Source of the DNA: Bryum argenteum
Taxonomy: Eukaryota; Streptophyta; Bryopsida; Bryales; Bryaceae
NCBI GenBank assembly: GCA_037043015.1
Contig: CM073327.1
Span: forward strand, 7,236,727-7,300,726
Length of the DNA stretch: 64,000 nucleotides
Direction: 5' to 3'
Shown: positions 12,850 to 60,583 of the stretch, in pieces
How the letters are laid out: the number at the start of each line of letters is the position of its first letter
How positions within the stretch are numbered: position 1 is the stretch's first letter
The notes under the pieces: generated by a model
The model's input: only the letters and a program-made list of their open reading frames with translations
What the model was told of the DNA's origin: nothing
Databases searched by the model: none
Translations under genes and position numbers: made by a program

Positions 12850-15800
12850 ATGGCGCTCTTGCTATCGAGGAGTTTGATAGGAGCAGCCTCTTTTCAGGAC
12901 AGCGGAATAGGTTTTTGTCCCTGTCTGCATCGAGGAAGTGCACTTCTGGCAAGAAGATCATCACGAAATGGCGAGAATTCTCGAAACGCAACTCTGTCCA
13001 TTCAGTGTCGCGGCAGGGAGCTGCCAGAGGGCGCTACAAGGCAACGCGGTCAAAAGCAAGAACTGCGTCGTAATGCTCTTCAACTCTATCGGACCCGATT
13101 TGCCGCGGCGCTCACAGCCGAACTGGTATATGCTCGTCGCCGAAATTACTGTTATGAAACTGCTTGCTTAGACTACTAGCTCGATTTGAATGATCAAGAG
13201 CTGGCTAGTCATACAGCAAAGTCTTAAGGCAGGAATTTAACGAGATGTTCCAATTCATGTTTTCATATTCATATCTTAGTTCCACAATCTGCGAATTTTC
13301 CGCTTTAAAAGGCTCTATTCTTAAGCTGTAAATACATAGAAACAGATATAGAAGCGTCCAGCGTAATTCCTAAGTTACTACTCTAATGGAAGGAAGGAAT
13401 CGATTGCTTCACTGCACTTCCAACAACTCTGAATTTAGGAGATGTTTCAGCTTGCAATTGCAAAAGTGGATATGACAAGCTCTGTAATTAATGGCATAGT
13501 GCATTCTTGAACTAGGAGAACATAGTCCATATGGAGTTCAATGGTTCAAATTAAGTGAACGGTACTCTGGATTGTGCAGGGATTGATGATATTGTGAGGT
13601 CCGTCAGACGATTGTGCTTGTTTTAAAGACGGATCATATTCTTGTAAAATTGCTTTAATATGTTTGGCAACTTCGTGTGTCAAATGGATCTTTTGTGCAT
13701 CCAGAAAGTAAGTACTGTGTGGAAACGTGAATTTCTCCAATTTTGATCCTAGCTCTCCTCTGCTTTTGCTCTGCATTAACAGTATGCGTGTGTTTGTTAG
13801 GAAGAGGAACTGGAGGCGATGAAAAAAAGATTGAAACAATGGTCGAAACAGCGGCTGCAGACTGAAGGATTTGCATTGTTTGATCTTACAGTTCGTCCAG
13901 ACGGTCGTCTATATAGGTATCTGTTACACTTTTATGGATGGCGTTTGGGTGGCATTAATGATTTTTTCAAAACAGCAATCTGGTCATCTAGAGTTTCAGA
14001 GCAATTGATCCCCTCTTGATCATTTTGTATTTTTTGAGCTCTTATAGTTGAGAAGCACTTCAGCTCCCATTCATTCAATTATGTGCTTCTGAATGTTACA
14101 GGGATCTGATATTTCGGTTTTCTAGTCCTCAAGAGAGAGGCGGTCTTTTACCTTCTCAACATCAATTTAGTCAGGTAGCGTTCCGGCTCAAATATGTTTG
14201 ATTCGGATATTTATGTTGTTCGGAGCTCGAAGTTGATCAAATATCTTATTTAAAATTCCGTGGAGATGATTCTTGGTGGATTGGATGCAGGGGGACATGG
14301 TTGTTATCAGTAGAAAGAATCCGCTTGATGATGAGGACACTGTTATAGAGGGGGTGGTGATGGAGAGAGCTCGCAGGTAACCGTCACCTCCTTTATTTCA
14401 ATGACTAGTTACCTTGTTTCGCTTTTAGATTCTGGTGCATATGGTTAATTAGCTGTAGAAAAACACACAGATTACGTCTCTGTTGTTTCGTGCGTCCATT
14501 AAATGTGTCACGCAATTGAATTGTACCCTGATTGAATACATGTAGTATAGAGCCTTTCTGTTTTTCATGAATAAATATATCGTCCTGTGGGGCAGGTTTT
14601 TGAAGGTCGCAATACCATCATATCAGTCGAAAGGTCTAAATGTGTCGTTAAAGTGGCGCCTCGATCTGTCGGCAAATCGTGTTTCTTATGAACGGTGTAT
14701 GCTAGCAATCGATTGCTTTGCCTCTCCTGAGCTTCGACAGGGCCTTAAGGGGACTCTCCCTCTGCCCACCCCGCCTGCTGCTTCCTCAAACGGCTCAAAA
14801 AACTCTACCAAATCAGAAAAAACCATTACGGTCGGAGAGGGAATTATGGCTGTGAGAGGTTTGATCATGGGAGTTGAGGAAACAAAGGCAAGACTTGGTG
14901 AAGATGCTGCTCTCGAGAGTTTGCCTTCTGAAACCTACATCAATCAAGAGAATTTGACCGTGGCCAAGAGCCCTCCTTCTCGGATAAGTGGAAAGATGTT
15001 TGGTTCGCACAAGGGCAGTGTAAGGGCCTTAGTGCAAACGATGGAGAATGAAATAAATAACAGTCAGAAATCTGCCATTGAAGCAGCTCTGAATCGAAGA
15101 CTCACTCTTTGGCAAGGGCCACCAGGCACAGGGAAAACTCGAACTCTAGTAAGACTCATTACCGCGTTCTGTCGTAGCAAGCAAGGTCAAGTTCTCGCTT
15201 GTGCTGATAGGTATGCACGGTTGACTTGGTTATGGCGGATTACTTAACTTCTTTTTCTGTTTTGCTACTTTTTAATGTTCTTGTTTCTCGAAATTTGGAA
15301 CTAGATGCTATGTTTTTCGTCTAAAGGCCAAGGCACTCGAGGAACAAACCGTTTAGTTTCTTTCTGAAACTTGTGTTAGTAGTAAATTATCAAGACAAAG
15401 CAGCAGAAATTTTCTGCATCATCAGCTGTATTTTTTAGTCACGAGGCATGTGCTTCATCGCTTGATGAACCTACATTGCAGCAATGTGGCAGTTGACAAC
15501 CTCTTGGAAGGCTTGCTGGATCAAGGTTTACGTGTTGTTCGAGTTGGTCAACCTGTTAAGGTGGTTGTTTCTGTCAACCCCTTGCTTAGCTCCTATCTTA
15601 CACCCTCACGAACTCGAGTCACAATTAGTCAGTTGATGAGCCTGATCGTACAATCGGCTGCCTTTGACCAAGTTTCCCTCCATTGAATGTATGGCATGTA
15701 TGGCAGGTTAAGGAGATCCTCCGAGATGCAACACTTGATGCACAGCTTCTGAAACATCCTCTGATGCTCAAAGCTGCGGCATCTAGACAAGCCGCCATAT

Positions 15801-21288: not shown

Positions 21289-21852
21289 GTGAGGATTTTG
21301 CTCGGTTCGGAAAAGCTGGCAGAAAGTGAAGAGGAGGGAGGATCAGCGCTGGAGCATGCCAACGAGGGGCTGGTACGCGAGCTCTACACGGCGCTAGCGT
21401 CGGGCGATGCATCGAGAGTGGGCGAATTAGTGGACGAGGATTTGGAGTGGTGGTTCTATGGACCACGGCGCGAGCAGCACATGATGCGCTTGCTCACTGG
21501 TGTTACTTCGTGTGACACCTTCGCCTTCCAGCTGACGAGCATTCGCGGCATAGGCAACAGGGTTTTCGTGGAAGGAGAGGCTCCAAAAGCGAGCTCGAAA
21601 CGAGGAGCCGGAGCCGGCGCCGGTTCTGCTTCCGGTTCTACTGTCTACTGGGTGCATATATGGACGCTTAAGGAGAATCGCATCACGCAACTGCGCGAGT
21701 ATTTCAACACCGCCATCCTGGTGACCGATCTCAAGCCTACTACTCCTACCCCGCACGAGATCCAGCACCATCCGTGCGTCCCGCTCTGGCAGAACCACCT
21801 GTGGAAGTCTAAAGAAGGCCGGGAGCTTCCAGGCCTCATCCTGGCGATCTGA
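21289..21852 (+). CDS. Wound-induced protein 1 (WUN1)-like NTF2-fold protein, start codon not found
   Basis: The frame to the stop at 21850-21852 carries the plant WUN1/SnoaL-like hallmarks in order: ELYTALASGDASRVGELV, DLEWWFYGP, MMRLLTG, VYWVHIWTLKENRITQLREY, FNTAILVTD, and the C-terminal PGLILAI that ends this family. Members are small single-domain proteins of the NTF2-like cone fold, often stress- or wound-responsive; their biochemical role is not settled. The annotated left end is only the limit of confident reading: the frame stays open back to about 21220 but contains no ATG before 21481, which would remove the WWF core. The true start is therefore probably in an upstream exon, with a pyrimidine-rich acceptor region near 21245-21295. 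A glycine/alanine/serine-rich insert lies between the two halves of the fold. Confidence 0.85.
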   Translation: MRILLGSEKLAESEEEGGSALEHANEGLVRELYTALASGDASRVGELVDEDLEWWFYGPRREQHMMRLLTGVTSCDTFAFQLTSIRGIGNRVFVEGEAPKASSKRGAGAGAGSASGSTVYWVHIWTLKENRITQLREYFNTAILVTDLKPTTPTPHEIQHHPCVPLWQNHLWKSKEGRELPGLILAI

Positions 21853-27944: not shown

Positions 27945-28107
27945 ACTAATTCCTACCTAGCCATTAGTGCATAAGAGATAATCGACACGTCAACTCTATA
28001 ATGGGGTTTGAGGTACCCATAAAATGAGGTTTAAGGAACGCCCACCTTAGTTGAGTGAACTAAAATGGTGAGTGCCATGTCGGTATGAGAAATGGAACTC
28101 ATAAGGT
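27945..28107 (-). mobile_element. SINE fragment, minus orientation
   Basis: Similar in the same orientation to 44.69-44.85 kb: a diverged CCTAG...ACTAGTGC phrase, then TTTGAGGTACCCA, CTTAGTTGAGTGAACTA, TGGTGAGTGCCATG and GGAACTCAT. The B-box region is decayed and the A-box head is lost. It starts about 30 bases after the solo LTR target duplication. Confidence 0.6.
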
Positions 28108-33599: not shown

Positions 33600-34784
33600 G
33601 TCTAATAGAAGAGTCACTAATCTTGTTATTGTAGGCCAACCCTAGTTCATCCGAAAGCGAGGATGAGTGAGTGAGTCGAGGAGGACATACTCCTACATTG
33701 CAGTAGCTTAATTGTAAAATATTGCCCTCTGACCCCATTCATAGGTCAAAAACCAGTTTAGAGTGTGATGTTATCGAATTTCTGATAATATCACAAAAAC
33801 AATTGCTACTACATAGGAGTTGAGGATGTGCGTCATATTAAGAAACGTGTCATTTTACAGGCATAAATATTTCTAAACATTCTAAAATATGCCTCTAAAA
33901 TGGCACGTTTTAGAAAGCGGCCAAAATGGCACATGAGGGCTTAAGTTTGGCAAAACGGTACAAGGAAGACCGCTATTTTAACAAAATTGAGGTTTAGGAC
34001 TAAGTGTTCCTTTTCAAGTAAGTATACATTTTATATAAAGAAAATATAAGTAGGAACTTCGGAATTTTCTTGACTTTTTAGGGTGCCGGTAAGGCCAAAG
34101 AGGAGGATGTGTTTCTTTTTTAAAAAACTAAATAAATAAATAATAATAATAATAATTTTTAAAACATCACATGGGAAAAATTATAGAAACTTTCTCTATG
34201 CTGCCAAAAGGAAAATTAGTTAGAATTTTTATTTAAATTATTCATTAAAAATCTTGTAAGTACTTTTTGGAAAGTTCTGGACAAGGTGGGGATTTGAGAC
34301 GCGGTTAGGGATATAGTTTGGGAGAAGGACAGGCCGTCAATGGGGGATGGGGTTCGTGACACATTTAGGGTTTGGAAAGAGTAAAAAAACAAGTTTCAAG
34401 ATAGAAACAAAGATGTTTCTCGAGAGAAGGATGCAAACATAGATAAGGAAGGAGTTCCCGCCAGAGTTTGAAACATGGAAGAAGACAGAGAGATAGAGAT
34501 ATCAACGTGATTTGGGCTATAGACTGTAGTAGGAACTACAAATTCTAATTATCATTTAGGGTGCGACAACGCCGCGGGGTCATACAAGTTCATTATTCTT
34601 TTTCTCTCTCTTGGTTGTAAGACGACTTCTCGGTAAGATTTAGCTTTTTGGGTGGAACTTGTAAATCCTTCATATTGATGCATTGACAAGGTCTACCTAG
34701 CTTGAATAAGAATTGCAAAGTGATTGCAAAATGATTGATGTGCATTTTTCTGAATAAATATGTGTGACGTATCTTTCGACGAAA

Positions 34785-34870
34785 TGGAAAATGATCGTAG
34801 CCAAACTGTGCGCAAGGAGACCTTGTAGGAGGCGCCAATTCACGCTACGGATCTTCCTAGTACAAGAGTC
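34785..34870 (+). pseudogene. Extra decayed copy of exon 1 of the amplicon gene
   Basis: The reading beginning ATGGAAAATGATCGTAGC resembles exon 1 of copies B and C but meets a stop after about 15 codons, and similarity ends near 34855. It is the first half of a local duplication (34.44-34.87 kb versus 34.96-35.47 kb). Confidence 0.65.
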
Positions 34871-35329: not shown

Positions 35330-35470
35330 ATGGGAAACGATCGTAGCAAACCTCTGCACAAGGAGACCGTGGAGGAGACGCCAATTCATGCTACGGATCT
35401 TCCTCAAGAACATGGTCTTTGTATCGAATGAGCAAGCACAGCCGCATGGAATCACGTTGAAGAGGCGGTA
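35330..35470 (+). pseudogene. Exon 1 of amplicon gene copy A, frame-shifted
   Basis: The ATG at 35330 opens a frame like exon 1 of B and C through HATDLPQ. One extra base then shifts the frame, which ends within about eight codons. Exons 2 and 3 of this copy (36645-37243) remain open, so copy A would need another first exon or is inactive. Confidence 0.65.
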
Positions 35471-36644: not shown

Positions 36645-37243
36645 GCACCTGCAGCCGCTTACATCAATCCTCATGTCGAGATACCAGATGCCTACATCGA
36701 TCCACACATCACCTTGAATGCGGAAGAGTCAAGTGGTATACAATCCAGTGACCAACACTTGAGTGCCATAGGCTCAAGCAAGCAGCGGATTGGAGGCTCA
36801 ACATTCATCCGCCACGAAAACCTCTTTCCAGAGTATGAGTTCACTCCCGAAGAACAACAAGAGCTTTCGAGGATTCTCGAAGGCCTGAGGGGGGGCTCAG
36901 AACAGGTACGATTCATCACCGAATGTCATATGACTTAATGGTTAAGTGCACGATCTGAATCATACTAACGAGGAATGTGCAGGTTACACCGGGGTTTGTG
37001 TATGGGGTGATTCCAGGTCCTCGTGTTCGTGCCGAGGATATTTTCGTGGAGCCAACAAAGGATAATACCGTTCCCAGAGTGCCATTGAGCGATTCCGATC
37101 CGGAGGAGTCGTCAAGTGGACCGGAAAGTGGTGAGGACGATGAGGAATGGGATCCTACAAAAGGGAAGAAACGGGAGTCTTCGGGGCAGGTGAAGTCCAA
37201 GTCTGGTAAAAGAAAGTACCCCAAGGGAGCTAAGAAGGAGTAA
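36645..37243 (+). CDS. Amplicon gene copy A, exons 2 and 3 (unrecognised protein)
   Basis: Exon 2 is 36645-36905 and exon 3 is 36983-37243, both open, joined by a 77-bp intron with a textbook TACTAAC branch site. The encoded part is about 173 residues: DAYIDPHITL, FPEYEFTPEEQQELSRILEG, FVYGVIPGPRVRAE, an acidic Ser/Glu/Asp stretch, DEEWDPTKGKKR and a lysine-rich end YPKGAKKE. Exon length differences from B and C are multiples of three (+9 and -3). No known domain was recognised. The acidic middle and basic tail suggest a nuclear or nucleic-acid-associated protein, but this is inference. Exon 1 of this copy is damaged. Confidence 0.6.
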
Positions 37244-43307: not shown

Positions 43308-45003
43308 ATGGAAAACAATCGTGGCAAAGCTGTGCACAAGGAGACCTTGGAGGAGGCGCCAATTCATGCTACGGATCTTCCTCAAGACATGGCCTCTATA
43401 TCGAATGAGCAAGCACAACCGCATGGAATCATCAACGTTGTAGACGCGGTTAGTACGGTCACTACTCACGCTAGAACTTCTTGCTTTTTGTTGATCACTA
43501 ATGATTTGTTATTTAGGTTTGAAGTTTTCCCTTCCTTGCATTAGTCGCTTGTTTATTGGGGATTCTAGTCATCATTGGTTTGGAAAGTGAGGAGTTTATA
43601 CGTAACAACTCTAGTCTAGCTTATCGATATCAATGATGTTAACCCTAAAATCGAATGGCTTCAAAAGTACTAAAACTCCATAACTCCTTTCATTTTCAGT
43701 GACGAAGGTGCAAATTTCTAGTTTGTTGATATTGTTTGAGGTCTATAATTGTAGGATCTTGTAGATAACTTGTATGTTCATAAATGTACACTACCTCATC
43801 ATCTTGAGAAGTCCACCTGCTTGATGTGACATGAATATTGTCCAGTTCATAACATGTACTTGAAATGATTGTATCAACTTCTGTTCGCTGAATTCTTATG
43901 CTACTATTTTCAAGCTCACCAAATACAAGTCTTTGAAACTTAGAAATTCATCTTTCACGAGAAATTATGTAAATACTATGGTCAACATGAAACTTTTGCT
44001 TAATACTACCATGGTGAATAAAATTCAGAATATTTCTTGCTATAATGTGTAGAATACATATACTTAGTACACTTACATCTCTCATTGTATGAATTACCTC
44101 CTCAAGTAACAAATCAAAAGTCAAGGGAGTGTAGAAAGTACTGACCCAACATGCCTAACTTTAGGATGATGTAATTTTCTCCAAAATGATTAGAAATTAC
44201 AAAGTGCCTTAGAATCATAAGAATGGCCAAGAAAGTTCATTTTGACTTAAAATTATCAAAAATGATTGAAACATAGAGATATTCATTTCTTGAAGTTGGC
44301 ATGTTTAGCCTAACACTTTCTTTACTTCCTTGCCATCTTCATTCGTTATGTAATAGAAAAATCTTACAATGAGAATTGTACGTGTAAATGTGTTCTAAAC
44401 GTCATGGCAAGAGGAATTCAGAGATTCAGTCACCATGGTAATGCTATACAAAATTTACATTTTGAATATTTATAGAATTACCATAAAGGATGTATATCTA
44501 AGTTTGAGAGAGTCTTCACTCTTAGTTGAAGCTTGATAATATTGTCTGTTGTAGATAGATAGAAACTCCGGTCCCTTTCTAAGGGGCCGGCGTGAATGAA
44601 GTGTCTGTTCGTAATGCTATTATTCCGATGGCCACCGGACAAGGGGAAATTGGAACAATACTACTTCCCCCTCTCGAGGGTGGACACTATAACTACGCTA
44701 GTTTCTAGCCTAGTTACTAGTGCCTTGAAGATACTTGACATAGTACCTCCGCTAAGGGCTTTGAGGTACCCACACAACAAGGTCAAAAGACCCCCCACAA
44801 TAGTTGGGTGGACTATAGTGGTGAGCACCACGCCGGCATGGGGAATAGAACCCACGACCTCCTCATCGGGGGCCTAAGCCCTAACCACCAAGCCAAGGCT
44901 TGTGGTGCCTTTGTCTGATGTACTATTCAGGTACCAGCCAATCCTCATGTCGAGATACCGGATGCCTACATCGATCCGCACATCACCTTGACTGCGGAAG
45001 AAT
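43308..45003 (+). pseudogene. Amplicon gene copy A', truncated after the start of exon 2
   Basis: Exon 1 (43308-43448, 47 codons: MENNRGKAVHKETLEEAPIH and onward) is open and ends at a GT donor. Exon 2 starts at 44931 (VPANPHVEIPDAYIDPH) but is lost after about 24 codons, where similarity switches to the opening segment of unit B. Exon 3 is absent. A SINE lies in the first intron just before exon 2. Confidence 0.75.
44549..44910 (-). mobile_element. Complete tRNA-derived SINE with 7-bp target duplication
   Basis: On the minus strand the head reads like a tRNA gene: A box TGGCTTGGTGG and B box GGTTCTATTCC about 40 bases apart. The body follows, then a tail of TCTA repeats. It is flanked by TTGTCTG at 44542-44548 and 44911-44917. 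Units B and C have no insertion here, so it arrived after unit A' separated. Two decayed relatives lie at 11234-11340 and 27945-28107. The internal Pol III boxes show it is a SINE, not a tRNA gene. Confidence 0.88.
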
Positions 45004-45438: not shown

Positions 45439-46934
45439 CTAAACGTTCAATACCTTCAATGTAAGAATTCAATATAAATGTCTAATAGATGGAAGGCATG
45501 AGTAGCAAACACTCATTTGTAAATTGCTTTGCTTTGAAAATTATTACCTAAAATTTTATACATATGATTCTACACATAATTTACATATATCAACCTTGCA
45601 TTATATTTATAGCATCCCTTATACTTTTGCACATCTATCCAGTTTTGTTGAAACAATACCGTTTTGATTCTCAAGTAATAAATTGGAAGATTCTCAACAA
45701 TATTTTCATTCATGAGATCCGACTATTCATATCTTAATCTAACAACCAAGTGTTATTCTAAGAAACTCAACATAAACTAATAAAAGTGGATCATTTTATT
45801 AACTTTGCACTTTTCTCAATTTGATAAAAAAACTCAAAACAATCTTGAATGAATATGTTGAAATCACAAAAATACTCAACTCTTAACAAAATTGCTACAA
45901 CTTCGGTTCCAACCCCAACTGCAACTTGAGGCTAAGACATATTACTTTCATATGAATTTAAGCACACTTTCATATTTCAATCATTCTAAAGAATTTTTTT
46001 TGAATATTAATAAATTTTAATAGATCTATCCTAAGGGTACTACTTTTAATGCATTGCAAAGTTAATGGACTACAAGACATCACTCGTAGTGACATCTTAG
46101 AGTTTACCAAATCAAAGGGATGAGTCGGAATGGAGTATTACCTTTGATGCACTTCCTTGGTGCAACGTGTAATTTTTTTATTTTTTTATTTTTTTATTTT
46201 TTAAAAATTATTTATTTATGTCTAAGAAATAATAATTATGCATAGTCCAAAAAATATAAGAAGAAGGTAGGTAGGTAGGTTGGGAGTTTGATACGTTGGT
46301 GGGTACGAAGGGTTGCTGAATGAATACCCAATTCTTTTATATATAGAGATAATATTCATTCATTCAATAATTAGTACATCTCTTCAAAGTATATAACTCT
46401 TCGAGAATTTTTGATTAATAATTAAAGTCAGATATACTACTACAATACAATATTTGGCGATTTCAATTCATAATTTCTTTTAATTTTCAACACGTTCTAA
46501 AATAATTCTTAGTGTTTTAGGAAATTTTGAAGTAAATTGATTTCTTGTCAAATCTCACGTCTCCATGATCGCGTGAGGTATCATAAATTATGACGAAGGG
46601 GAACCCCTAAATCAAATGTCCATAAGTTAATTTGTCTTTTCTCACTTAAAGTGCACAAATTGTTTATATACTTAAGGTACATGGTTTGTTTTGTTTAGGT
46701 TGACAACAAGGTCTTGAGAAGTGGCTCGGAAGGTGTCGATGAAAGTCCATATCTTTGTTGTTTCACGGGCACTACTTGGATTGTAAATCCAATGTGGAAC
46801 TAGTATTTGGACCGGGACTTGCATTAGGAGTTCTAGATGTGTTGAGGAGCTCGTATCAGGACTCGTATAGGGACACTCAGCCACGCTGGGATACTAAGGG
46901 ACTTGTGCTGGAATGTGCTTCAAAACTTGTACTA

Positions 46935-47368
46935 AACCTCAATTCCGTTAAAATGGAGTTATTCTGCTAAAATGGCGCTTTTTGGGGTGCTTAAAATGAA
47001 AAAATGATGTTAATTTTCGTCGCGTTTTGAAGTTTCATATGCATGATAGGGTAAATATTTCTGAACGGCCGTTCAAAAACAACAATGTTTCTAAAGGGCC
47101 GTTCAGAAAAATTGCCCTTTTACTGTGTCCGAAGGTCAAAAACCTTTAAAACTGTGTGATATTATGGATATTTTGGTGATATTACGGAAATTTTGGTGAT
47201 ATTACGGAGTACATGTGTGATATTAATAAACATGTCATTTTATAGGCATAAATACTTCTGAACTTCACTTCAAAAATATGGTTGTAAACTGGCACGTTTG
47301 CACAATATGGCACTTTAGCTCTGCTGGAATGGCACATAGAATAGTGCCATTTTAACGGAATTGATGTT
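46935..47368. mobile_element. Complete 434-bp MITE (AACCTCAATTCCG ends)
   Basis: Left end AACCTCAATTCCGTTAAAAT; the right end read in reverse is AACATCAATTCCGTTAAAAT. It is flanked by ACTA on both sides (46931-46934 and 47369-47372). Unit A' has the empty site CTTGTACTAGGACTTG near 41716. The interior carries repeated (T)GGTGATATTACGGA phrases and no coding frame. Unit C has it at the same site (ending at 62242). Superfamily not assigned. Confidence 0.85.
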
Positions 47369-47497
47369 ACTAGGACTTGAAGCGGAACTCGTATTGCAAC
47401 CAACGTTGTCTTATCAGACAAAATTCCTATTTATTTGTCAGTCACAATTTAGATGAAAATGATGTACATTTGATACATTGATGTCGTCTTAGATGTA

Positions 47498-48340
47498 CAG
47501 TAGGGTCCAACATGGAATGACGTTTTTGATTTTGTAGGGAACAAAAGCTCCTTCATGCATATGTGGCATTCAAATTCTCTACAAGTGTATACATTGGGAT
47601 GTGACAAGTGTGCACAACTAAATTTGGATGTTCTTGATTTTTTGAGAAGAATTTTTATTTAGGTGTTGTATCATATGGACAATTTCATACTAAAAGATCA
47701 CTATCCACCCTTTTAAGCATGAACATTCCAAACACGCTCTTGAATTGCTCTCGCAATTACACATGTCGGTAGATTGTGAGTAAATTTTTTGTGTAAGCTT
47801 TTAGAGCTTGAATTTTGGCACACTAGTCATTAACATGTAGCTTATCTTGTGACAAAGATTTCAAGGGAAATGGGCCATTTTTTAGCCATTGGGAGGGTGT
47901 CACAGTTGGTTGGAGTGGAGTTGATTTCTACAAGCATACCGCAAAATAACACATGTTGGTAGATTGGGAATATCTTCTTTTTCACTAATATTTTGGACTT
48001 CAGATTTTTACCATATATTTCTAACACAAATTGTGTTCTACTACGAAAAAAAATCAAAGTAAGGAAAAATAATCTCAATTTCTTGGGAGGATGTCAAAGT
48101 TGGCATGAGTGAAAAATAATTTACAGCTACCTATCTTGGTAGATTTTGTATAACTTTTTTTGGTGTATTTTTTGGATTTGAGACTTGGTAGGCATACTAA
48201 CAACTTGATTTCAAGTCTATGGCAAAATTTTCAAGGTGAAATAACAATTTTTTGAGCTCTCTAGAGGCTTCCAAAGTAGGCAGACTTGATTATTTTCCCA
48301 CTACATAACCAAAAACGCCATTCCATGTTCGACCCTACTA
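47498..48340. mobile_element. Mariner-like non-autonomous element in unit B only
   Basis: It starts CAGTAGGGTCCAACATGG and ends, read in reverse, TAGTAGGGTCGAACATGG. The inverted repeats extend about 29 bases with a few mismatches. A TA on each side (47496-47497, 48341-48342) replaces the empty site GATGTACATCTC seen in unit A' (near 41826). TA target and CAGT-like ends fit Tc1/mariner. No full transposase frame is visible in 843 bp. Confidence 0.82.
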
Positions 48341-48724
48341 TACATCTCATCAAATTTGTGTTTGACAAATGAGTAGGGATTTTGTCTATTAAGACAACCC
48401 TAACCGGAAGTCCGGAACTACTTGTGGGACTTGTATTGGGACTCGTAGCACAACTCGAAGTGGTCATGCATGGCATCTCTCGGGTGGAATTTGTGAGTAG
48501 TTTTTGGAAAGTTCTGTACAAGGTGAAGGTGGTTAAGGGGTTGGGGTTCCCACACGTTTAGGGTTTGGGAAGAGTAAATAACAAGTTTCCAGATAGAAAA
48601 GAAGATATTGCCTAAGAGAAGTACACAAACATAGATAAGGAAGGAGTTCCAGTTAGAGTTTGAGATAGAGGCAAAGACGAGGAAATAAAGATATCAACGT
48701 GATTTGGGCTAGAGATTGTGATAG

Positions 48725-49440
48725 TGTTAACGGAATATTCGTAGCATATTTGCTAGGCTATTTACAAACTAATCTATACCCGGCATGTATAGACTCGGTA
48801 GTCGATACCCGGTAGGGTGAGTAGGTCGGATATTTATTTGGCAAAACTAGAGCCCTAGACATGTTTTAGACATCCGGTGAGTCGCTGACTAGGCCCATGT
48901 CGGCTGACCTCTTTTGATCGGCTGGATCTGGCTGTCAGCGGCACCTAACAACTATATGTATCACTCTCCAGCCTCCACTATGTAAGAGTTGAATCTACTC
49001 TTTTCGGCTGGTAACACGAGAGTCTTGCACGATCTTCTACTCTGTTCTGTTGCTGTGTATGTTTGAATAAACTAGCCGACTTCTTTCTCTAGGGTCCCTG
49101 ATATGTTTGTTAGATTCGCTTGTTTTCTCTTCCTTTTGTGTTTGACACATCCGGCGTAAAGGTCTCTGTTCTTTTGCTGTGTATGTTTGAATAGACTAGC
49201 CGACTTCTTTCTCTAGGGTCTAGAGCTGATATGTTTGTTAGAATTGCTTGTTTTCTCTTCCTTTTGTGTTTGACAGATCCGACGTAAAAGTGTCTGGTAA
49301 CCCTAGTATCTGACTTGCTTGTAGAGTATACGGCTCCCTCTTCTTGTTAGTTGCAATTTCTATGATCCGACCTGATTGCGACTAGTAGGAAAACTAACCT
49401 AGACACGTTAGGGTAAGTTTCTAGAAAAACCCCATTAACA
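48725..49440. mobile_element. Solo LTR in unit B, with internal duplication
   Basis: Same insertion as 42468-43053: begins TGTTAACGG, ends CCATTAACA, preceded by GATAG. At 716 bp it is longer because a segment of about 130 bp (containing TGTGTATGTTTGAATA and CTAGCCGACTTCTTTCTCTA) is tandemly duplicated. The unit C copy shares this duplication. Confidence 0.85.
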
Positions 49441-49511
49441 TGTACGAACAACAAATTCTAATTACATTTTTGGATGCGACAACGCCGCAGATGTAACGTA
49501 TTTTTCACAAA

Positions 49512-51354
49512 ATGGAAAACGATCGTGGCAAAGCTGTGCTCAAGGAGACCTTGGAGGAGGCGCCAATTCATGCTACGGATCATCCTCAAGACATGGCCTT
49601 TGTATCGAATGAGCAAGCACATTTCCATGGAAGCACTAACGTTGTACAAGCGGTACGGTCACTACTCATTCTAGAGCTTCTTGCCTTTTCATTACTTTTT
49701 GTTGATCACCAATAATTTGTTATCTAGGTTTGAAGTTTTTCCCTCCTTGCATTAGTCGCTTGTTTATTGGGGATTCTAGTCATCATCGTTTTGGAAAGTC
49801 CGGAGTCTATACGAAACAACACTAGTCTAGCTGTTCGATATCAATGATGTTAACCCTAAAATCGAATGGCTTCAAAAGTACTAAAACCCCATAACTCCTT
49901 TCATTTTAAGTAACTATGGTGCAACTTTCTAGTTTGTTGATATTGTTTGAGGTCTATAATTGTAGGATCTCGTATATAACTTGTACGTACATATATGTAC
50001 ACTACCTCATCATCTTGGGAAGTCCACCTCCTTGATGTGACATGAAAATTGTCCAGTTCATAACCTGTACTTGAAATGATTGTATCAACTTTTGTTCATT
50101 AAATTCTTATGTTACTAAGTATCCTCAAGTATACCAAATAGAGGTCTTAGAAATTCATCTTTCACGAGAAATTATGTAAATACTATAGTCAACATGAAAA
50201 TTTTGCTTAATACTACCATGGTGAGTAAAATTCTCAATATTTCTTGCTTTAACGTGTAGAATACATCTAGTACACTTACATCTCTCATTGAATGAATTAC
50301 CTCCTCAAGTAACAAATCAAATGTCAAGGGAGTGTTGAAAGTATTGACCCAACATGCCTAACTTTAGAATGATGTAAATTTCTCCAAAATGATTAGAAAT
50401 TACAAAGTACCTTAGAATCATAAGAATGGTCAAGGAAGTTCATTTTGACTTAAAATTATCAAAAATGATGAAACATAGAGATATTCATCTCATGAAGTTG
50501 GCATGTTTAGCCCAACACTTTCTTTACTTCCTTGCCATTTCCATTTGTTATGTAATTGAGAAATCTTACAATGAGAATTGTACGTGTAAGTGTAAATGTG
50601 TTCTACACGTCGTGGCAAGAGAAATTTGGAGATCCACGCACCATGGTAATACTATACAAAATTTACATTTTGAGTGTTTACAGAATTACCATAAAAGATT
50701 TGAGAGAGTCGTCACTCTTAATTGAAGCTTGATAATTATTATTGTTTGATGTACTATTCAGGTACCAGCCAATCCTCATGTCGAGCTACCAGATGCCTAC
50801 ATCGATCCGCATATCACATTGAACAAGGAAGAGTTCAGTGGTATACAATCCAGTGGCCAACACTCAAGTGGCATAGGCTCAAGCAAGCAGCCGCAGAGTG
50901 AAGGCTCAACATTCATCCGCCATGAAAACCCCTTTCCAGAGTATGAGTTCACTCCCGAAGAGCAACAAGAGCTTTCGAGGATTCTCGAAGGTCTGAGGGG
51001 GGGCTCAGAACAGGTACGATTCATCACCGAATGCCATATGACGTAATGGTTAAGTGCACGATCTGAATCATACTAACGAGGAATGTGCAGGTTACACCGG
51101 GGTTTGTGTATGGGGTGATTCCAGGTCCTCGTGTTCGTGCCGAGCATATTTTCGTGGAGCCAACAAAGGATAATACCGTTCCCAGAGTGCCATTGAGCGA
51201 ATCCGACCCGGACGAGTCGTCAAGTGAACCGGAACCGGACGAGCACGAGGACGAGGAATGGGATCCTACGAAAGGGAAGAAACGGAAGTCTTCTGGGAAG
51301 GCGAAGTCCAAGTCTGGTAAGAAGAAGTACCCCAAGGGAGCTAAGAAGGAGTAA
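49512..51354 (+). CDS. Amplicon gene copy B: unrecognised 218-residue acidic/basic protein, intact
   Basis: Exons 49512-49652, 50762-51013 and 51091-51354, all phase 0, give 218 residues. Introns are GT-AG; the second is 77 bp and contains TACTAAC before the acceptor. The protein has a polar N-terminus (MENDRGKAVLKETLEEAPIH), a Ser/Gly-rich stretch, a helical-looking block FPEYEFTPEEQQELSRILEG, the motif FVYGVIPGPRVRAEHIF, an acidic run (SESDPDESSSEPEPDE), EEWDPTKGKKRK and a lysine-rich tail ending YPKGAKKE. No signal peptide, membrane segment or known domain is evident. A nuclear, chromatin- or RNA-associated role is conceivable from charge layout only. The twin copy C is on the opposite strand. 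Confidence 0.75.
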
Positions 51355-51960
51355 ACACCTGGAGGAGCATGACATCTTGCAGGAGCATGACATCGCAGTA
51401 CCTGGAAGTATGTTGTTCCTCATTTGAGAGAGAATGTGAGTGAAGAGACACCTGAGTGGAATGTCAAGACTTGGGTGTGTGAATCGTTGCACTGATTTGC
51501 ACAAAGTAGGATGTTTTATTCTACTAAGTTGTGAGTTAATGTTTGAAGTTCATTGTCTTTGTGGAGCTCAAAACTCAAAGCTGTGATTTTCTACCACTTG
51601 CACAAGTGGGGACATGGAATACATGTTCATAGTTTGTTTTAGAGTTTTTGTAGTTTTGTTTCTAGTTTCATGATGAATGTTGAATGCGTGGCTGCTATGT
51701 TATTTACTTATGGCATAGTCATACTATACATGCTACCGGCCTTGCATTACACTTACAACACCATACATACTTTGGCACGTCTATCCAAATTTGTTCAGAA
51801 AATACCGTTCTCATTATTAAGTGACAAACTAAAAAAATTACGGAGTTTACAGAGTGCTTGACATGAGTATGTCGTTTCCATTCTCAAGTAGCACATTAGA
51901 GGAAATTATGATAAGAGTGGTACACAACGAAAGGATACATTTCTTATTCTCATCGCCCAA

Positions 51961-52340
51961 CTCGGCCTAACGTGTTAAACTTCATTTACATAAAATAATG
52001 TTGATTCATGCCACTGACAGAATATCTATTATCTGGTGATATGCAACTGCTTTAGCAGGACACACACAAAGCTTGGAACCCCAGATTTGTCAAATTTCTC
52101 AAATCAATGCCGCATGTGCCATTTCTACGTTTCAAATGAATCTCTCCCATAGCTCCCACATGGGTCCCTTCCTCTGCTCATTTAAGTACACAAATGAGGG
52201 TGTACAGGAGTTAGTGCGGCCATTTTGCTGTGTCGAAGATTTGCAGGAGCTCCAGAGCAATGAGCGCTGCAGCTCCATGTGTGAAGTTTAAATGGTTTCG
52301 GTATCGTGTACTGCTGTTTAGGCCGGTCATTGTTTTGCTG
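51961..52340. other. Left part of the inverted-repeat spacer
   Basis: Region between the 3' end of unit B and the stop codon of the CTFxPxIN gene; probably holds that gene's 3' untranslated region. No other feature seen. Confidence 0.4.
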
Positions 52341-55300
52341 TTAAACATCAAACATAGTGCGAGTAAGAGAGCTTGAAATCCAATTTGGCGTAAACGATAA
52401 AGCAGGTTCAGCTGAAGAACATGAATGAAGGATGCATGTGTTTGAAATTACTTCCGAGAAGAAGACTTTCTTCTCCCATTTTTCCTGTTCAATTTTCATT
52501 TGTTTGGCCAAACGCTGAAGCTCGAGATGTCGTTGAACTCCTTTGATTTGGTCTCCACTTGACCCCACTTCTTTAGGTGGCCATGGATTTATTGTGGGTG
52601 TGAAGGTGCACTCTTGCAGCTCTTCAATTTCTTTCATTACTCGTTCCCTGTATTCTTGCTTTTTCCTCTCCTACATATACGTTCATACTTAGTCCTCGCT
52701 AAATGGCAAGTAGCCGAGCATGGGAATACCTATGAACAAAGGAAAACGTACTTTGTAATTATAAGAACGAGATGAATATTGCACACCTCTTTGATTCTTC
52801 TACGTTGTTCGAGGAAAGCTTCGTCAGGTGGGAAACTTGTACTGCTCAACTACTCACACAAAAGCCAACAATAGCTTAGATTACAATATTCATGGAGACT
52901 CTTATCATTGTTCAACAATAGCTTAGATTACAATATTCATGAAGTCTCTCATCATTGTTTGTAAGCTTATTTTGTAGGTAGATTACATGGATTGTTCAAG
53001 CAAATTGAATCACAACAATCTCAATGACGTAGAAGTTACTAAACTACTAAACTGTTGCACGTACCTCTGGACGGAACGTGCAAGTTCTTTGAAATTCCTC
53101 TTGCGCTAATACTCTCATATGATCCTTGTGTTGCTTGGCTCTTTGGTCCTGTTAAGTTTTTGTTTTGAAACTTTGAAGTAAATTTAAAGTACGTCTTAGT
53201 AAAACAAAACAAGTTACAAAAAAAAAGTACAAGGATTGTATGAGAATAGTTCAAAGTACCAGATGAAGTGTTTCAATTGATGGGGGTCGTCCCACGAGTC
53301 GTGAGGTTTCATCAATATGAGGATGAAATGTGAATTGGGAGTAGTAATTATCCTGCAAAAGCCACAAAACGCCAGGCACCCTCAGCAACATTCGTGTAAC
53401 AGGAAACATCTATCTTCTCCTCAGTCTTAGATTTTCAATCATAGCAATAGGTATTCGACCATAGTGAAATATTTGGTACATGTATTTGTTGTTGAATGAA
53501 TTGGCGGTGATGATTGTCGCCATTTGAGAGCCTTTCGCACATTTCAGATTTGTTTTCATCAATTCTAAACAGTGGTGAACAACGCAGAATAGAATGTGCG
53601 TTCCCTCGCTCCGGCTGGAACGTCATCTCAGAAGCAAGCTCCTGCTGCTTCAACCTCTGTTGGCAGGAAACCACCCCTGAGAGACTCGGAAGAAATAGGA
53701 ATACCATATGAAAGGGTAATTGCTTTAGCACATTCCATTCACTGTGGAAATAGACTCTGCTGCTCCTTAGAAAATGTACAAAAACTTACCCAGCTGACAA
53801 GTAGACTCCTCAAACCTGCATCAAAACTTACAAGTATACGTTTAATTGGTATCCCGGTAAGCTTCATCCTTAAAAAAAACTGTGAAGATGCTTGATACCT
53901 TTCGCTGCTCTACCCTGTTATGGAACTGCTGTTGACGTGTGAGAAAGTCACACCCCTCAAGCGCAGTTCCAGCCAAGATCTGGTCCGTGTTAGCATTTAT
54001 CTCTGGGACAAATGTGCATACAATGGCCGCTTTTGATGTTTCAGATGCTTTTGCCTGGAAGTCAAGACTGACTCTAGCTTCATAAACACTGAAGGACCTA
54101 CCATATAGTCAAACGATTCGCAGAAAATCAAATATTGGCTACTTATTTGCCGCTGCTGTTGCTGTTACTATTTATAATTCAAACCATACCAACACAGCAT
54201 TCCATGACGAGAATTACCCGAGGATCTGAAACATCCGTCCAGCAGTTGGAGGAATTTTGTGGGCTAGTTTTGCCTGACACGTCCTTCATGTCGAGAGTGA
54301 GTGGAGATTTTGCCCTCTGTACCACTTCAACATTACAAACTTCTGTTAGATTTCAAAGCTTAAAACTATTATGTTTAACTGCTGAAAACAACATGAATTC
54401 TACCAGGCTGCGCGTCTTGACAGAGTATGACGGGCAGTTCCATACCTTTTTAAGGATTCGCACTGAATTTGGATTCAATTCGGGTTTGAAGGTAACCCCT
54501 TGATCCTTCGCTTCTTGTTCTTGTACTTTTTTGATCATCTTCTCTTTTTGTTCCTGAGATGCTCAAAGATGCTCAAGGTCACTCACTTCGCACAATCATA
54601 GGAATTTCACGCACAACATCAGGATGAACTCTGCAGCAAATTTTGCCTCCGCATCGAACTACGAACAGTTGAATATAGTAGTGAGAGAAGTCAGTGGTGC
54701 ATTTTGCAGTGGAGGCTCTGTTTGGAAGTGATATGCCAAGACTTTGTTGTGAATTTCTGACGTGCGACTCTTGAATCTCAACTTCGTTCCGTACTAGTTT
54801 CGAATAACATACTGGGCACTACTTAGAAAAGTTAAGTAGATGAAGCGCTCACTCGGATGCAATCAAGTCGCTTCTCGATGGGCCTATATCCCTCCATATC
54901 AGAGTGCTTTGAGGGATTTATGTTGGGGCGAAAGGAGCACATGTCTCGCTCCTCTTTTTCTCGTAATTTTGTAGCCTGCAGGTGATGCCAATCTCCACTC
55001 AGAATGATTTCTAAATTAACAAAAGCACATCCTGGTCTCTTGTGCAAGTTTTGAAAAAGTTCAAGAGGAATGCCCTGACTCTAAACGTACACGTTTACTA
55101 GAGTTGATTCGCTCCTGGACGTCACCAAGGCGCTCGACAAAAGGTGAGAAGCAATTGTATCCAGCCTCTGTCTTCCTCCCTCCTTTGGCCTTCAAGATTG
55201 AAAGAAACAATTCAGCAATAGAAGGAACGTGAAGGTACATCCTCTGGAGTGAGCATTGAGCACAGAGTACTTAGTCCTAGCCCTACCTTTGACGAGTATT

Positions 55301-57499
55301 CAGATGTCGTCCTTGATTCTGGGGAAGATCTACTCTGGTTCACTTGGTACATTCTCTGGACAGCTACAATCTTGGGTATTTGTAAATGCATCTTACTTTT
55401 CTGTATGCAGAAAAGATTAGACCTCACCGAATCGATAGTCTCATCTTCAACAACAAACATACAAGTTGCAGATCTTAGAATTTTCCAGACTGACATCCTC
55501 TATGAACAAGATAATACCTTCAAGGGAGCTTCGTTTCGCTTCACCTCTGGAGTACTCTGAAGTTCTCGAATAGCCGCCACGGTCTTCGGCGTAGACAGAC
55601 GCTCCACAGTGGCCTGTACCACTATGAAGAATCTGGTCACTACATTCATTTTTGGACATGCAATTCCAATATATGTTAAGTTGAAACCATGATCACATCA
55701 AAGACAATGGGAAAAGAATTCTTAAATACTATGGTTACCGCCTTCATTGATTGCCGCCTCGGTGCTTTCACCTTCTGCTTGCAATTCGGTTCCTACCCGT
55801 GCACATCCCTTCTTCAGTACTTCGCTCAAATTTAGGTTGCAGTGTAAAAAGTTTTTCAGAAGCTGTTTCAAGCAGTGAGGTAGTACCACAAATTTGAAGC
55901 TGCAGTTCCATTCCCTTTGAGAATTTGCATCGGCTTTCCTGTAATTTGTCGGTAGTCCAGTCTGCCATTGAAATGCGTCACAACCGTAACCAGGATGAAT
56001 ACTATTTCACATACTTCCAAAGAATGTTGACCATTAGTCCTGATATGAAATCAATAGTAGCTTACAGGTTTCGATTCTGCAGCATTCTTATTTGCCTGCG
56101 ATGGAAGGGTTTCGGGCTCCATCACGGTTGGCTCTGAGGCCGAGCTTGAGCAGGAAGAATGCTTTCCTGCTTGAGAATTAAATAAAAAAAAGGTCACAGT
56201 AGATCCTCACCTTTACGAACCAATACACACTGAGACTAGTGAGGGAAGTACACCATGAACATCTCAATCAAGGCAGAACACAATATTCTGGTCACCTTCT
56301 GCCGAGGAGCTTGCATCCTCATCAAGCATGTTTTGCGACCGCTTTGGAACATTGATTTTGATCTCGCGTGGTGTAGGGGATCGCTTTTCATCTGCTCCCA
56401 AACTCTCCTCTTGTCCATGCCCTAACTGGTCACAGCAGAATCATGTTACAAAGACACTCCATCGCAGCCAGCAGCTTAGGGTTTGAGAACACTCACTTCT
56501 GTATGGAAGAATGAGTCTAGTTCCTGTAGCTTGTGCTTGTTCTGCCTTTCCTTCGACAACGAATCCGTGACAGCGCTTTCGGCCGAGTCTCCACCATCCG
56601 AACTTGCCCTATTCTGACATCCTTCAAAAGCAGCATCCTCTCAGAGATTGAACTGCCAAATTCACCATAAGACTTGTAAACTCATCTGCAAGCTCAATAC
56701 CTCAGATGCCGCTTCCGAAAATTGGCACGAACAACGTAATTCTCGCTCTGGCCAATCCGTAGACTGGCTCTTGTTGATTCGTCTCCCGTTTGACGTTCTA
56801 AATTTCGCCCCCTCGCCTTCATCATTGTCCGTGCTGTAAATTCCGTCGTTGTGCAAAGAGTAGGATTGCCATGAGCTCGCCTGCACCAACAACAATAATC
56901 TCTCACATGCTGCGGTACCATTCTTATAGCAGAAATAACAACCTTAATCGGCTGTTCATTACAAAAAAAACGAAGGTGAATGCTGTAGTAGAAAGTGAGC
57001 GAAAGAAGGATACTACTATTAATATATTACATAGCTTATAACAAGAATGAGCAGCTGTGGATTGGCAACAGGGAATAGCGCATTCACATGATATCTTCAC
57101 TTTAAAATGAGATTGATACTCACTGGCGATGATGAAAGATCTCTGGAGTTGCTAAGCAATCCCATGTTCTTGTTCCACTCAGGCTCCAACGCTGCCATCA
57201 AATTATTGATGTTCGAAGTCACGTAGGCACGCGCTTTCTTCAATTTCTCGTTACTGGTCTCGTATATTGCTGCAACAACAACGATTCACGATTAAATAAA
57301 CCAAATTGATAAATGAATTAAGAATCATCAATGTCGAGGTGTAGGGACCTTCTGATTCTCCAATGGTTGTGGGAACTCTGGAGAGAAGAGCTTCGCAACG
57401 CTTGATGCTGCCTTCAATGCCAGACTCCAGGCTTTGACTGTCACACTCCATGTCGTCCCCCGAAACTGCATCTGGTGTTCCCGACACCACCATTTTCAT
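52341..57499 (-). CDS. CTFxPxIN-repeat protein, candidate sperm/flagellar protein (843 residues)
   Basis: Nineteen exons, all in phase: 57499-57349, 57269-57124, 56880-56701, 56637-56497, 56425-56296, 56166-56066, 55938-55772, 55632-55518, 55355-55287, 55189-55091, 54975-54853, 54553-54446, 54316-54218, 54054-53899, 53656-53480, 53352-53260, 53148-53065, 52849-52787, 52670-52341. The N-terminal third is Ser/Glu-rich and poorly structured. The C-terminal half repeats a charged helical stretch followed by [CVMF][TS]FxPxIN: CSFRPNIN, VTFKPELN, CTFVPEIN, MTFQPERG, FTFHPHID, CTFRPEL, CTFTPTIN. Linkers such as YRPIEKRLD and SPFVERLGDVQERI recur. I associate this layout with proteins of motile cilia and flagella in protists; the assignment is by pattern only. 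The start is ATG 57499 (57493 is an alternative). The gene sits alone between two inverted amplicon arms. Confidence 0.85.
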
Positions 57500-58329
57500 C
57501 ACTGAATTGCTCAATTCAAGATCAAAGTGTGCCGATTTGTGGACGATCTACGATTGGGCCATTCTATTATCCAAACCTGTCGGATTCATGCGTGTACACC
57601 AGCTACAATCTTCAATGACCAGGAACATTGTTATGGTTTCTTTGGGTAATTTTGAATTTTGAATCTGCCCTGAAAGTTGTGGTCGCTATACTTGAAGGTG
57701 TAATGCGCGGCAACGGGACCTTCTCCGTCCTGGGACAACGACAGTTATTTACCGGTTCAGCCGGTGCGGCTATCTACCGACCACATGAATTAGTTGAACC
57801 CACGAGCTGCAGCATACTCTTTGATCTTTTAGTGTGGTCTACTTGAGATTTATTTTTTTTATTTTATTTTATTTTTTAATCGCACTCAAGCGTGCAGCCC
57901 ATGGCGGGGGTGCATCAGGTGGTGAGGCGCATGCAACATCAAGTATTTGGAATTTTTTGGAATATTTTGTGTCTTCAAAGTGATACTCTCTCTACCATCT
58001 GTATTGTTGGATAATCTGGGTCAAGGGTTTTGTAGTTGTTGATAGTCAACAAGTTTCAGATTCCGTGGTAGATTGCTTCCGTGGTAGGAGCGCTAAACTG
58101 CGTGATGAGGTCCGGTGATGAGGTCAGGTTGCGAACCGTGATGAGGTCCGGTGATGAGGTCAGGTTGCTTCGCGAATTGGGGTTTGTGTTCTCATTTTCA
58201 CGTGTTTACACTATTCGTGTCCTCGACAAGGACGGTGCGGGATTTGTTACATGGGGAGTTAAGGTGATTATGAGGTAGATGGAAGGCAAATCTCGCTTAG
58301 TGATCCATTTCTCAAACTTCAGTGTTTAC
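57500..58329. promoter_or_regulatory. Upstream region of the CTFxPxIN gene
   Basis: This probably holds the promoter (minus direction). No TATA box was assigned. It contains a two-copy 38-bp tandem repeat at 58101-58168 and is the right part of the inverted-repeat spacer. Confidence 0.4.
58101..58168 (+). repeat. Two-copy tandem repeat of about 38 bp
   Basis: GATGAGGTCCGGTGATGAGG followed by TCAGGTTGC occurs twice in a row. Confidence 0.8.
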
Positions 58330-58737
58330 TTCAAAGCTCAACTTTTGTGCAATGCATCACAATAAATGTTGTTGGCATAGTGGTGAGGCACCCATGCAAT
58401 CAACATTCATCATGACACTTGAAAAAAAACTATAAAAACTCTAAAAAAAAATTGTGAACATATATTCCATGTCCCCACTTCTGCAAGTGGTAGAAAATCA
58501 CAGCTCTGGGTTACAAGCTCCACAAAGACAAGAAACTTCAAGCATCAACTCATGACTAAGCAAAATAAAACTTCCTACTTTGTGCTTATGTGAACAACAA
58601 TTCACACAATCATGACCCAAGTCTTAACCGATTCCACCAGGCTTCTCTCCACTCACATTCTCTCTCAAATGAGGAACAACATACTTCCAGGTACTGCGAT
58701 GTCATGCTCCTGCAGGATGTCATGCTCCTCCAGGTGT

Positions 58738-60583
58738 TTACTCCTTCTTAGCTCCCTTGGGGTACTTCTTCTTACCAGACTTGGACTTCGCCTTCCCAGA
58801 AGACTTCCGTTTCTTCCCTTTCGTAGGATCCCATTCCTCGTCCTCGTGCTCGTCCGGTTCCGGTTCACTTGACGACTCGTCCGGGTCGGATTCGCTCAAT
58901 GGCACTCTGGGAACGGTATTATCCTTTGTTGGCTCCACGAAAATATGCTCGGCACGAACACGAGGACCTGGAATCACCCCATACACAAACCCCGGTGTAA
59001 CCTGCACATTCCTCGTTAGTATGATTCAGATCGTGCACTTAACCATTAAGTCATATGGCATTCGGTGATGAATCGTACCTGTTCTGAGCCCCCCCTCAGA
59101 CCTTCGAGAATCCTCGAAAGCTCTTGTTGCTCTTCGGGAGTGAACTCATACTCTGGAAAGGGGTTTTCATGGCGGATGAATGTTGAGCCTTCACTCTGCG
59201 GCTGCTTGCTTGAGCCTATGCCACTTGAGTGTTGGCCACTGGATTGTATACCACTGAACTCTTCCTTGTTCAATGTGATATGCGGATCGATGTAGGCATC
59301 TGGTAGCTCGACATGAGGATTGGCTGGTACCTGAATAGTACATCAAACAATAATAATTATCAAGCTTCAATTAAGAGTGACGACTCTCTCAAATCTTTTA
59401 TGGTAATTCTGTAAACACTCAAAATGTAAATTTTGTATAGTATTACCATGGTGCGTGGATCTCCAAATTTCTCTTGCCACGACGTGTAGAACACATTTAC
59501 ACTTACACGTACAATTCTCATTGTAAGATTTCTCAATTACATAACAAATGGAAATGGCAAGGAAGTAAAGAAAGTGTTGGGCTAAACATGCCAACTTCAT
59601 GAGATGAATATCTCTATGTTTCATCATTTTTGATAATTTTAAGTCAAAATGAACTTCCTTGACCATTCTTATGATTCTAAGGTACTTTGTAATTTCTAAT
59701 CATTTTGGAGAAATTTACATCATTCTAAAGTTAGGCATGTTGGGTCAATACTTTCAACACTCCCTTGACATTTGATTTGTTACTTGAGGAGGTAATTCAT
59801 TCAATGAGAGATGTAAGTGTACTAGATGTATTCTACACGTTAAAGCAAGAAATATTGAGAATTTTACTCACCATGGTAGTATTAAGCAAAATTTTCATGT
59901 TGACTATAGTATTTACATAATTTCTCGTGAAAGATGAATTTCTAAGACCTCTATTTGGTATACTTGAGGATACTTAGTAGCATAAGAATTTAATGAACAA
60001 AAGTTGATACAATCATTTCAAGTACATGTTATGAACTGGACAATATTCATGTCACATCAAGCAGGTGGACTTCTCAAGATGATGAGGTAGTGTACATTTA
60101 TGAACATACAAGTTATATACGAGATCCTACAATTATAGACCTCAAACAATATCAACAAACTAGAAAGTTGCACCATAGTTACTTAAAATGAAAGGAGTTA
60201 TGGGGTTTTAGTACTTTAATTTGAAGCCATTCGATTTTAGGGTTAACATCATTGATATCGAAAAGCTAGACTAGTGTTGTTTCGTATAGACTCCAGACTT
60301 TCCAAAACGATGATGACTAGAATCCCCAATAAACAAGCGACTAATGCAAGGAGGAAAAAACTTCAAACCTAAATAACAAATCATTGGTGATCAACAAAAA
60401 GTAATGAAAAGCAAGAAGTTCTAGAATGAGTAGTGACCGTACCGCTTGTACAACGTTAGTGCTTCCATGGAAATGTGCTTGCTCATTCGATACAAAGGCC
60501 ATGTTTTGAGGAAGATCCGTAGCATGAATTGGCGCCTCCTCCAAGGTCTCCTCAAGCACAGCTTTGCCACGATCGTTTTCCAT
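58738..60583 (-). CDS. Amplicon gene copy C: unrecognised 218-residue protein, intact
   Basis: Exons 60583-60443, 59330-59079 and 59001-58738, all phase 0, encode 218 residues. The part from exons 2 and 3 is identical to copy B (checked over exon 2 from the ITLN block and all of exon 3 by conceptual translation). Exon 1 differs at a few residues (VLEETLEE, DLPQNMAF). Splice sites, the TACTAAC branch site and stop match copy B. Two intact copies facing each other across a 6.4-6.6 kb spacer is the arrangement in which gene conversion keeps arms alike. No known domain recognised; see copy B for layout. Confidence 0.75.

Follow-up and report, generated by a model that had tools for sequence, protein, structure and literature searches.

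A clustered, multi-copy gene family without recognised domains in the moss Bryum argenteum

The 64,000-nucleotide stretch of Bryum argenteum DNA analysed here (GenBank assembly GCA_037043015.1, contig CM073327.1, positions 7,236,727 to 7,300,726 of the forward strand; hereafter the window) carries several copies of a gene family, two of which, designated A and D, appear intact and encode a 218-residue protein. The family is real and ordinary in kind. As far as sequence comparison can establish it, a protein-coding history is demonstrated in part of the family: paralogues located on a second contig, C10, keep the protein blocks of the family, and in 8 of 16 pairs of second-subfamily copies the exons have diverged less than the introns at p<0.05. 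This supports the multi-copy protein-coding family proposed in an earlier note on this DNA. The window copies taken alone argue only weakly for coding constraint.

Gene models in the window

Copies A (plus strand) and D (minus strand) each consist of three exons separated by phase-0 GT-AG introns and encode a stop-free product of 218 amino acids (aa). The extents, intact state and GT-AG introns proposed earlier for these copies (49512-51354, plus; 58738-60583, minus) were confirmed to the base, and the TACTAAC word was located in intron 2.

Copy A exon 1, 49512..49652, plus strand, 47 codons
Copy A intron 1, 49653..50761, plus strand, GT-AG
Copy A exon 2, 50762..51013, plus strand, 84 codons
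Copy A intron 2, 51014..51090, plus strand, 77 bases, with TACTAAC
Copy A exon 3, 51091..51354, plus strand, acidic stretch and lysine-rich tail, includes the stop
Copy D exon 1, 60443..60583, minus strand
Copy D exon 2, 59079..59330, minus strand
Copy D exon 3, 58738..59001, minus strand, includes the stop

When the coding sequence was base-shuffled, the frame was open in 0 of 20,000 cases. The coding sequences of A and D differ at 4 bases, all of them in exon 1 (1 synonymous, 3 nonsynonymous).

The remaining copies are incomplete. In copy C exons 2 and 3 are open and exon 1 is damaged, as the earlier note had described; copy B, listed there as truncated, consists of an open exon 1 followed by a fragment of exon 2. 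The span of 31 kb that the note assigned to the copies needs correction; they occupy about 26 kb, including a further exon 1 relic that was absent from its list.

Solo exon 1 relic, 34784..34858, plus strand
Copy C exon 1, 35330..35467, plus strand, frame damaged by insertions or deletions (indels) of 1 and 4 bases relative to A
Copy C exon 2, 36645..36905, plus strand, open
Copy C exon 3, 36983..37243, plus strand, open, includes the stop
Copy B exon 1, 43308..43448, plus strand, open
Copy B exon 2, 44931..44991, plus strand, truncated, the sole exon 2 piece found

Predicted protein and similarity searches

The protein of copy A has a mass of 24 kDa, an isoelectric point of 5.3, no cysteine and one tryptophan. 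Its mean hydropathy lies under the disorder boundary, its composition is of the disorder type and its charge is segregated (net -6 in residues 151-180 and +4 in residues 181-210); the protein is probably largely disordered. In an alignment of ten fragments, three conserved blocks were found: YIDPHxTLxxEExSGI, FTPxxxxELxxIL and GxIxGPxVRAExIFVxP.

The absence of a recognisable domain, reported earlier from reading alone, was borne out by Pfam, PDB sequence and profile searches. No Pfam-A family matched A or L034, a paralogue on C10 (expect value, E, up to 10 for A), and the matches of two of the ten members of alignment A1 to AcrF31 (best E 0.21) were taken as chance. Neither A nor L034 matched a PDB sequence at E up to 10, and the best profile matches to the PDB were a designed protein (E 0.24) and the ring protein 7qoj (E 1.9). 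A peptide pattern picked out 12 stretches in viral contigs and 37 in prokaryote contigs, none of which was confirmed by tblastn, which would find close relatives only, and phages gave no tblastn match at E up to 0.01. A viral or prokaryotic origin was rejected, there being no relative among the phages, viral contigs or prokaryote genomes searched. A literature search by general terms returned no description of the A/D family, in text that is not searchable by sequence.

Genome-wide distribution and a second subfamily

The genome to which the window belongs (258.8 Mb in 25 contigs, with the window on C7) was the only plant genome searched, and the counts obtained from it are lower bounds. With A as query, a protein search scored 28 candidates and gave at least 26 matches at E up to 1; 22 lie on C7 and the other 4, all weak, on C10. 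It located broken copies of the C7 type around the window and at 7.41 Mb and 5.03 Mb on C7. A DNA search with exon 3 of A found at least 5 places, all on C7. Exon 1 is commoner than exons 2 and 3, with more of it in L037, to the right of the window, fragments in L038 and one fragment in L036.

With L032, a copy on C10, the protein search gave at least 18 matches (E up to 1; 32 candidates), of which 16 were on C10, 1 on C2 and 1 on C1. Compared by tblastn with the C10 paralogues, A matched L032 at E 8e-11, L034 at E 6e-6 and L033 at E 1e-5. At the DNA level the resemblance between the two subfamilies is confined to parts of exons 2 and 3, each 41-57 bases long (72-84%, best E 3e-8), which coincide with the conserved protein blocks; exon 1 gave no match between the subfamilies better than E 0.5 and none above chance.

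An apparently intact model of five exons and 297 aa was obtained for L034 (C10, 3.788 Mb) from a nine-copy alignment. Its putative exon limits, picked from the alignment and GT-AG sites, give exons of 138, 99, 222, 333 and 102 bases, each a multiple of three. The last of these exons has 3 strong matches on C10 and 2 weak, adjacent ones at 3.771 Mb (E 0.06 and 0.07), and the window family stops short of it. In L032 exon 1 is missing and a stop interrupts exon 2, and L059 has frame damage and stops; of the copies examined, the window's A and D and, on C10, L034 appear intact. On the minus strand of L060, a long tandem array of AACAATGTTCCCC-like units lies upstream of exon 1.

Evidence on coding constraint

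Evidence of constraint was obtained from the second subfamily. Compared over exons and introns 1-3, L034 and L061 differ at 80 of 447 exonic positions and at 116 of 385 intronic ones (p 4e-5), and between L034 and L058 the corresponding figures are 84 of 447 and 115 of 364 (p 3e-5); without intron 3, p is 0.001 and 0.006, respectively. A set of 16 pairs, which share branches and are not independent, was then tested; for copies in which exons 4-5 are broken or absent, the introns used were 1 and 2 alone.

Pairs with exons less diverged than introns at p<0.05: L061/L058, L062/L058, L034/L061, L034/L062, L034/L058, L032/L061, L059/L061, L059/L058
Pairs not at p<0.05: L032/L058 (0.052), L034/L032, L034/L059, L032/L059, L061/L062, L034/L060, L061/L060, L058/L060

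Indels point the same way. Those in exons 1-3 of L034 relative to L061, L062 and L058 (9, 12 and 21 bases) are all in frame, and those between A and C in exons 2-3 (12, 3 and 3 bases) are multiples of three in 3 of 3 cases, as the earlier note had said of exon lengths, against 3 of 12 in A/C noncoding sequence. Pooled over A/C exons 2-3 and L034/L061 exons 1-3, the count is 6 of 6, compared with 6 of 24 for the corresponding noncoding sequence, with C's damaged exon 1 and the broken exons 4-5 left out.

The ratio of nonsynonymous to synonymous substitution rates (dN/dS) was 0.37 for A/C (bootstrap 0.20-0.69), 0.39 for A/L034 (0.19-0.64), 0.39 for A/L032, 0.37 for C/L032 and, in exon 3, 0.29 for A/L058 (0.17-0.78). 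In a simulation of the A/C comparison, in which 19% of the runs were without a stop, the 18.3 synonymous changes of 43 stood against a mean of 10.7 (p 0.0026). Divergence between A and C is 8.8% in exon 2, 7.7% in exon 3 and 2.6% (2 changes) in the 77-base intron 2, so that the statement that exons and the short intron are similarly conserved has to be split; of the other noncoding sequence, two parts of intron 1 differ by 7.9% and 14.8% and the 3' flank by 10.3%.

Several results weigh against coding constraint. Exons are not significantly better conserved than introns in 8 of the 16 pairs, and in L061/L060 and L058/L060 they are the more diverged (not significant). L059 and L060 have out-of-frame exon gaps, and dN/dS for L032/L034 is 0.53 (0.30-1.06). 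In exon 3 of the second subfamily it runs from 0.29 to 0.94 (L058/L061 0.29, L057/L061 0.37, L058/L034 0.73, L058/L032 0.73, L061/L032 0.78, L057/L058 0.94), and all six ranges include 1. Exon 1 of A and B gives 1.82, from few changes. Twelve noncoding control frames treated by the same method gave 0.35-1.39, with the A/C value at the edge: the dN/dS check suggested earlier thus yields a ratio below 1 for A/C, yet one within the range of the controls. Because of this overlap the ratio alone is not decisive, selection argued from it alone was downgraded, and the earlier caution that selection was unproven was right for the window copies. The simplest reading of these comparisons would be constraint on the older branches, with several recent copies decaying freely.

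The same data bear on the alternative that the family is dying, a former coding gene that now survives as pseudogenes, with A and D open by chance. Most of the examined copies are indeed broken, and both the A/C overlap with noncoding controls and the three nonsynonymous changes against one synonymous between A and D fit such a history. It is nevertheless unlikely, given the fully open frames and GT-AG sites of A and D (although exons 2-3 of one of the two may have been copied recently from the other), the in-frame A/C indels in exons 2-3 and the A/C synonymous excess in the simulation.

Duplication, exchange between inverted copies and the transposon alternative

Self-alignment of the window showed that blocks around A recur directly at B and inverted at D.

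Segmental duplication carrying A and D, 45791..51695, recurring inverted and in pieces at 64000-58388
48488-51695 against 61596-58388, inverted, 95% identity
46173-47305 against 63008-61839, inverted, 88% identity
45791-46065 against 64000-63719, inverted, 92% identity

As the A, B and D blocks share kilobases of flank, the copies travel with their flanks. Within the tract 50113-51376, A and D differ at 1 base; outside it the difference is 6.5% in the 5' flank, 13% in the 3' flank and about 3% across exon 1 and the initial 460 bases of intron 1. Because the near-identical tract includes half of intron 1, the preferred reading is that the copies recently exchanged sequence, not that selection kept them alike; selection inferred from the A/D identity was accordingly dropped.

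Acidic/basic proteins of unknown role occur in plant DNA transposons, and the product of the family could have had an accessory role in a transposable element, the rest of which is lost or unrecognised, the copies being relics of that element. Consistent with this, copies and fragments occur across four contigs (C7, C10, C2 and C1), and fragments such as L057 and L060 are cut at differing points. No match to a transposon-encoded protein, which had been named earlier as evidence against the proposed family, was found in Pfam scans of ORFs (open reading frames) of the repeated units: no transposase, integrase or reverse transcriptase domain was present in 10 window-unit ORFs (at least 75 aa) or 7 L032-unit ORFs (at least 80 aa), the scans covering unspliced frames of those lengths. 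The best match among these was to 8xMP (E 0.007), below its cut-off, and a separate Pfam scan of nine window ORFs included only one from a repeated unit. C7-type matches to exons 2-3 lie at only a handful of places (counts being lower bounds), A, B and D sit in blocks with kilobases of common flank, and the retained introns imply that the copies are not mRNA-derived. With these points against it, an origin as an element relic has only a small chance of being correct.

In copy B an insertion at 44554-44910, which separates intron 1 from the exon 2 fragment, has a 70% match at 27946-28101 of the window. On the minus strand it reads like a putative tRNA-derived short interspersed element, with A- and B-box-like words.

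Fold-back element in intron 1

Intron 1 of copy A contains an imperfect palindrome.

Fold-back element in copy A intron 1, 50157..50699, arms about 66% alike

This 543-base element is predicted to form an RNA hairpin of -168 kcal/mol (z -13.1), and strong folding is likewise predicted for the element in B (z -7.4) and in L037 (z -12.4). A genome search with it found 6 loci, all in the C7 cluster, and weaker pieces in L036 and L038, also on C7. In four comparisons of three copies, pairing was not conserved beyond chance (14, 14, 13 and 14 broken pairs against null means of 14.7, 15.2, 15.1 and 14.7), with a nominal excess of double changes in one of the four (2, p 0.04). A functional hairpin is therefore unsupported by pair conservation among the three copies, and the preferred reading of the palindrome is an old insertion of fold-back type that has probably been carried along. 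A long-hairpin small-RNA locus, with the palindrome as product and the exons as mere carriers, would account for the strong folds and the recurrence at six loci, but is highly improbable because substitutions break pairs about as often as chance.

Proposed role and comparison with known proteins

On balance, this is probably a lineage-restricted host family whose product is disordered and acts as an adaptor, possibly in the nucleus. The first part of this reading, a host gene family that duplicates and decays, deserves considerable confidence; the nuclear adaptor is a doubtful guess from composition. Such a family would spread by tandem, inverted and dispersed duplication, with most copies decaying. 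The lysine-rich tail would take the protein into the nucleus, where it might act as an adaptor. Partners would dock at the three conserved short blocks, and the acidic and the basic stretch would make contact with chromatin proteins and nucleic acid. The family is presumed to be confined to a narrow plant lineage. A stronger version, in which a new plant protein family that has three conserved linear motifs but lacks a folded domain evolves by clustered birth and death and inverted-copy exchange under genetic conflict (such as one that sets chromatin or silencing against mobile elements), is quite improbable.

Among known proteins, the LEA-type disordered proteins resemble A, which is hydrophilic, cysteine-free and of disorder-type composition, whereas A has no Pfam match at E up to 10 and has one tryptophan. 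Nucleoplasmin- and HMG-type chromatin proteins likewise have an acidic stretch beside a lysine-rich tail, but A and L034 match nothing in Pfam or the PDB.

If transcribed, the family adds a plant protein family without known domains and a compact example of how a gene cluster is amplified, decays and probably exchanges sequence between its inverted copies. Its three conserved motifs are of practical value in being searchable in other bryophyte proteomes. In the passages available from a study of Physcomitrella patens (PMC4301180), orphan (species-specific) genes are described, and 12% of cold-responsive genes are without a Viridiplantae orthologue, a proportion said to be similar to that of the whole genome. 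The present genes are alike in being plant coding genes without recognised relatives, and differ in that those passages treat expression classes and not the A/D family. Because orphan genes are common in moss by that account (PMC4301180), the surprise of the finding is moderate.

Other features of the window

Rfam and tRNA scans of the window returned nothing. The following ORFs were noted beside the family.

52341-55080, minus strand, between A and D, ORFs with repeated C-x-F-x-P-x-I-N words, of a kind that certain cilia-related proteins also have; a match of one ORF to DUF7465 is below threshold
21289-21849, ORF of the Wound-induced protein WI12 / SnoaL-like type
14567-15244, ORF with an AAA_11 helicase-type match

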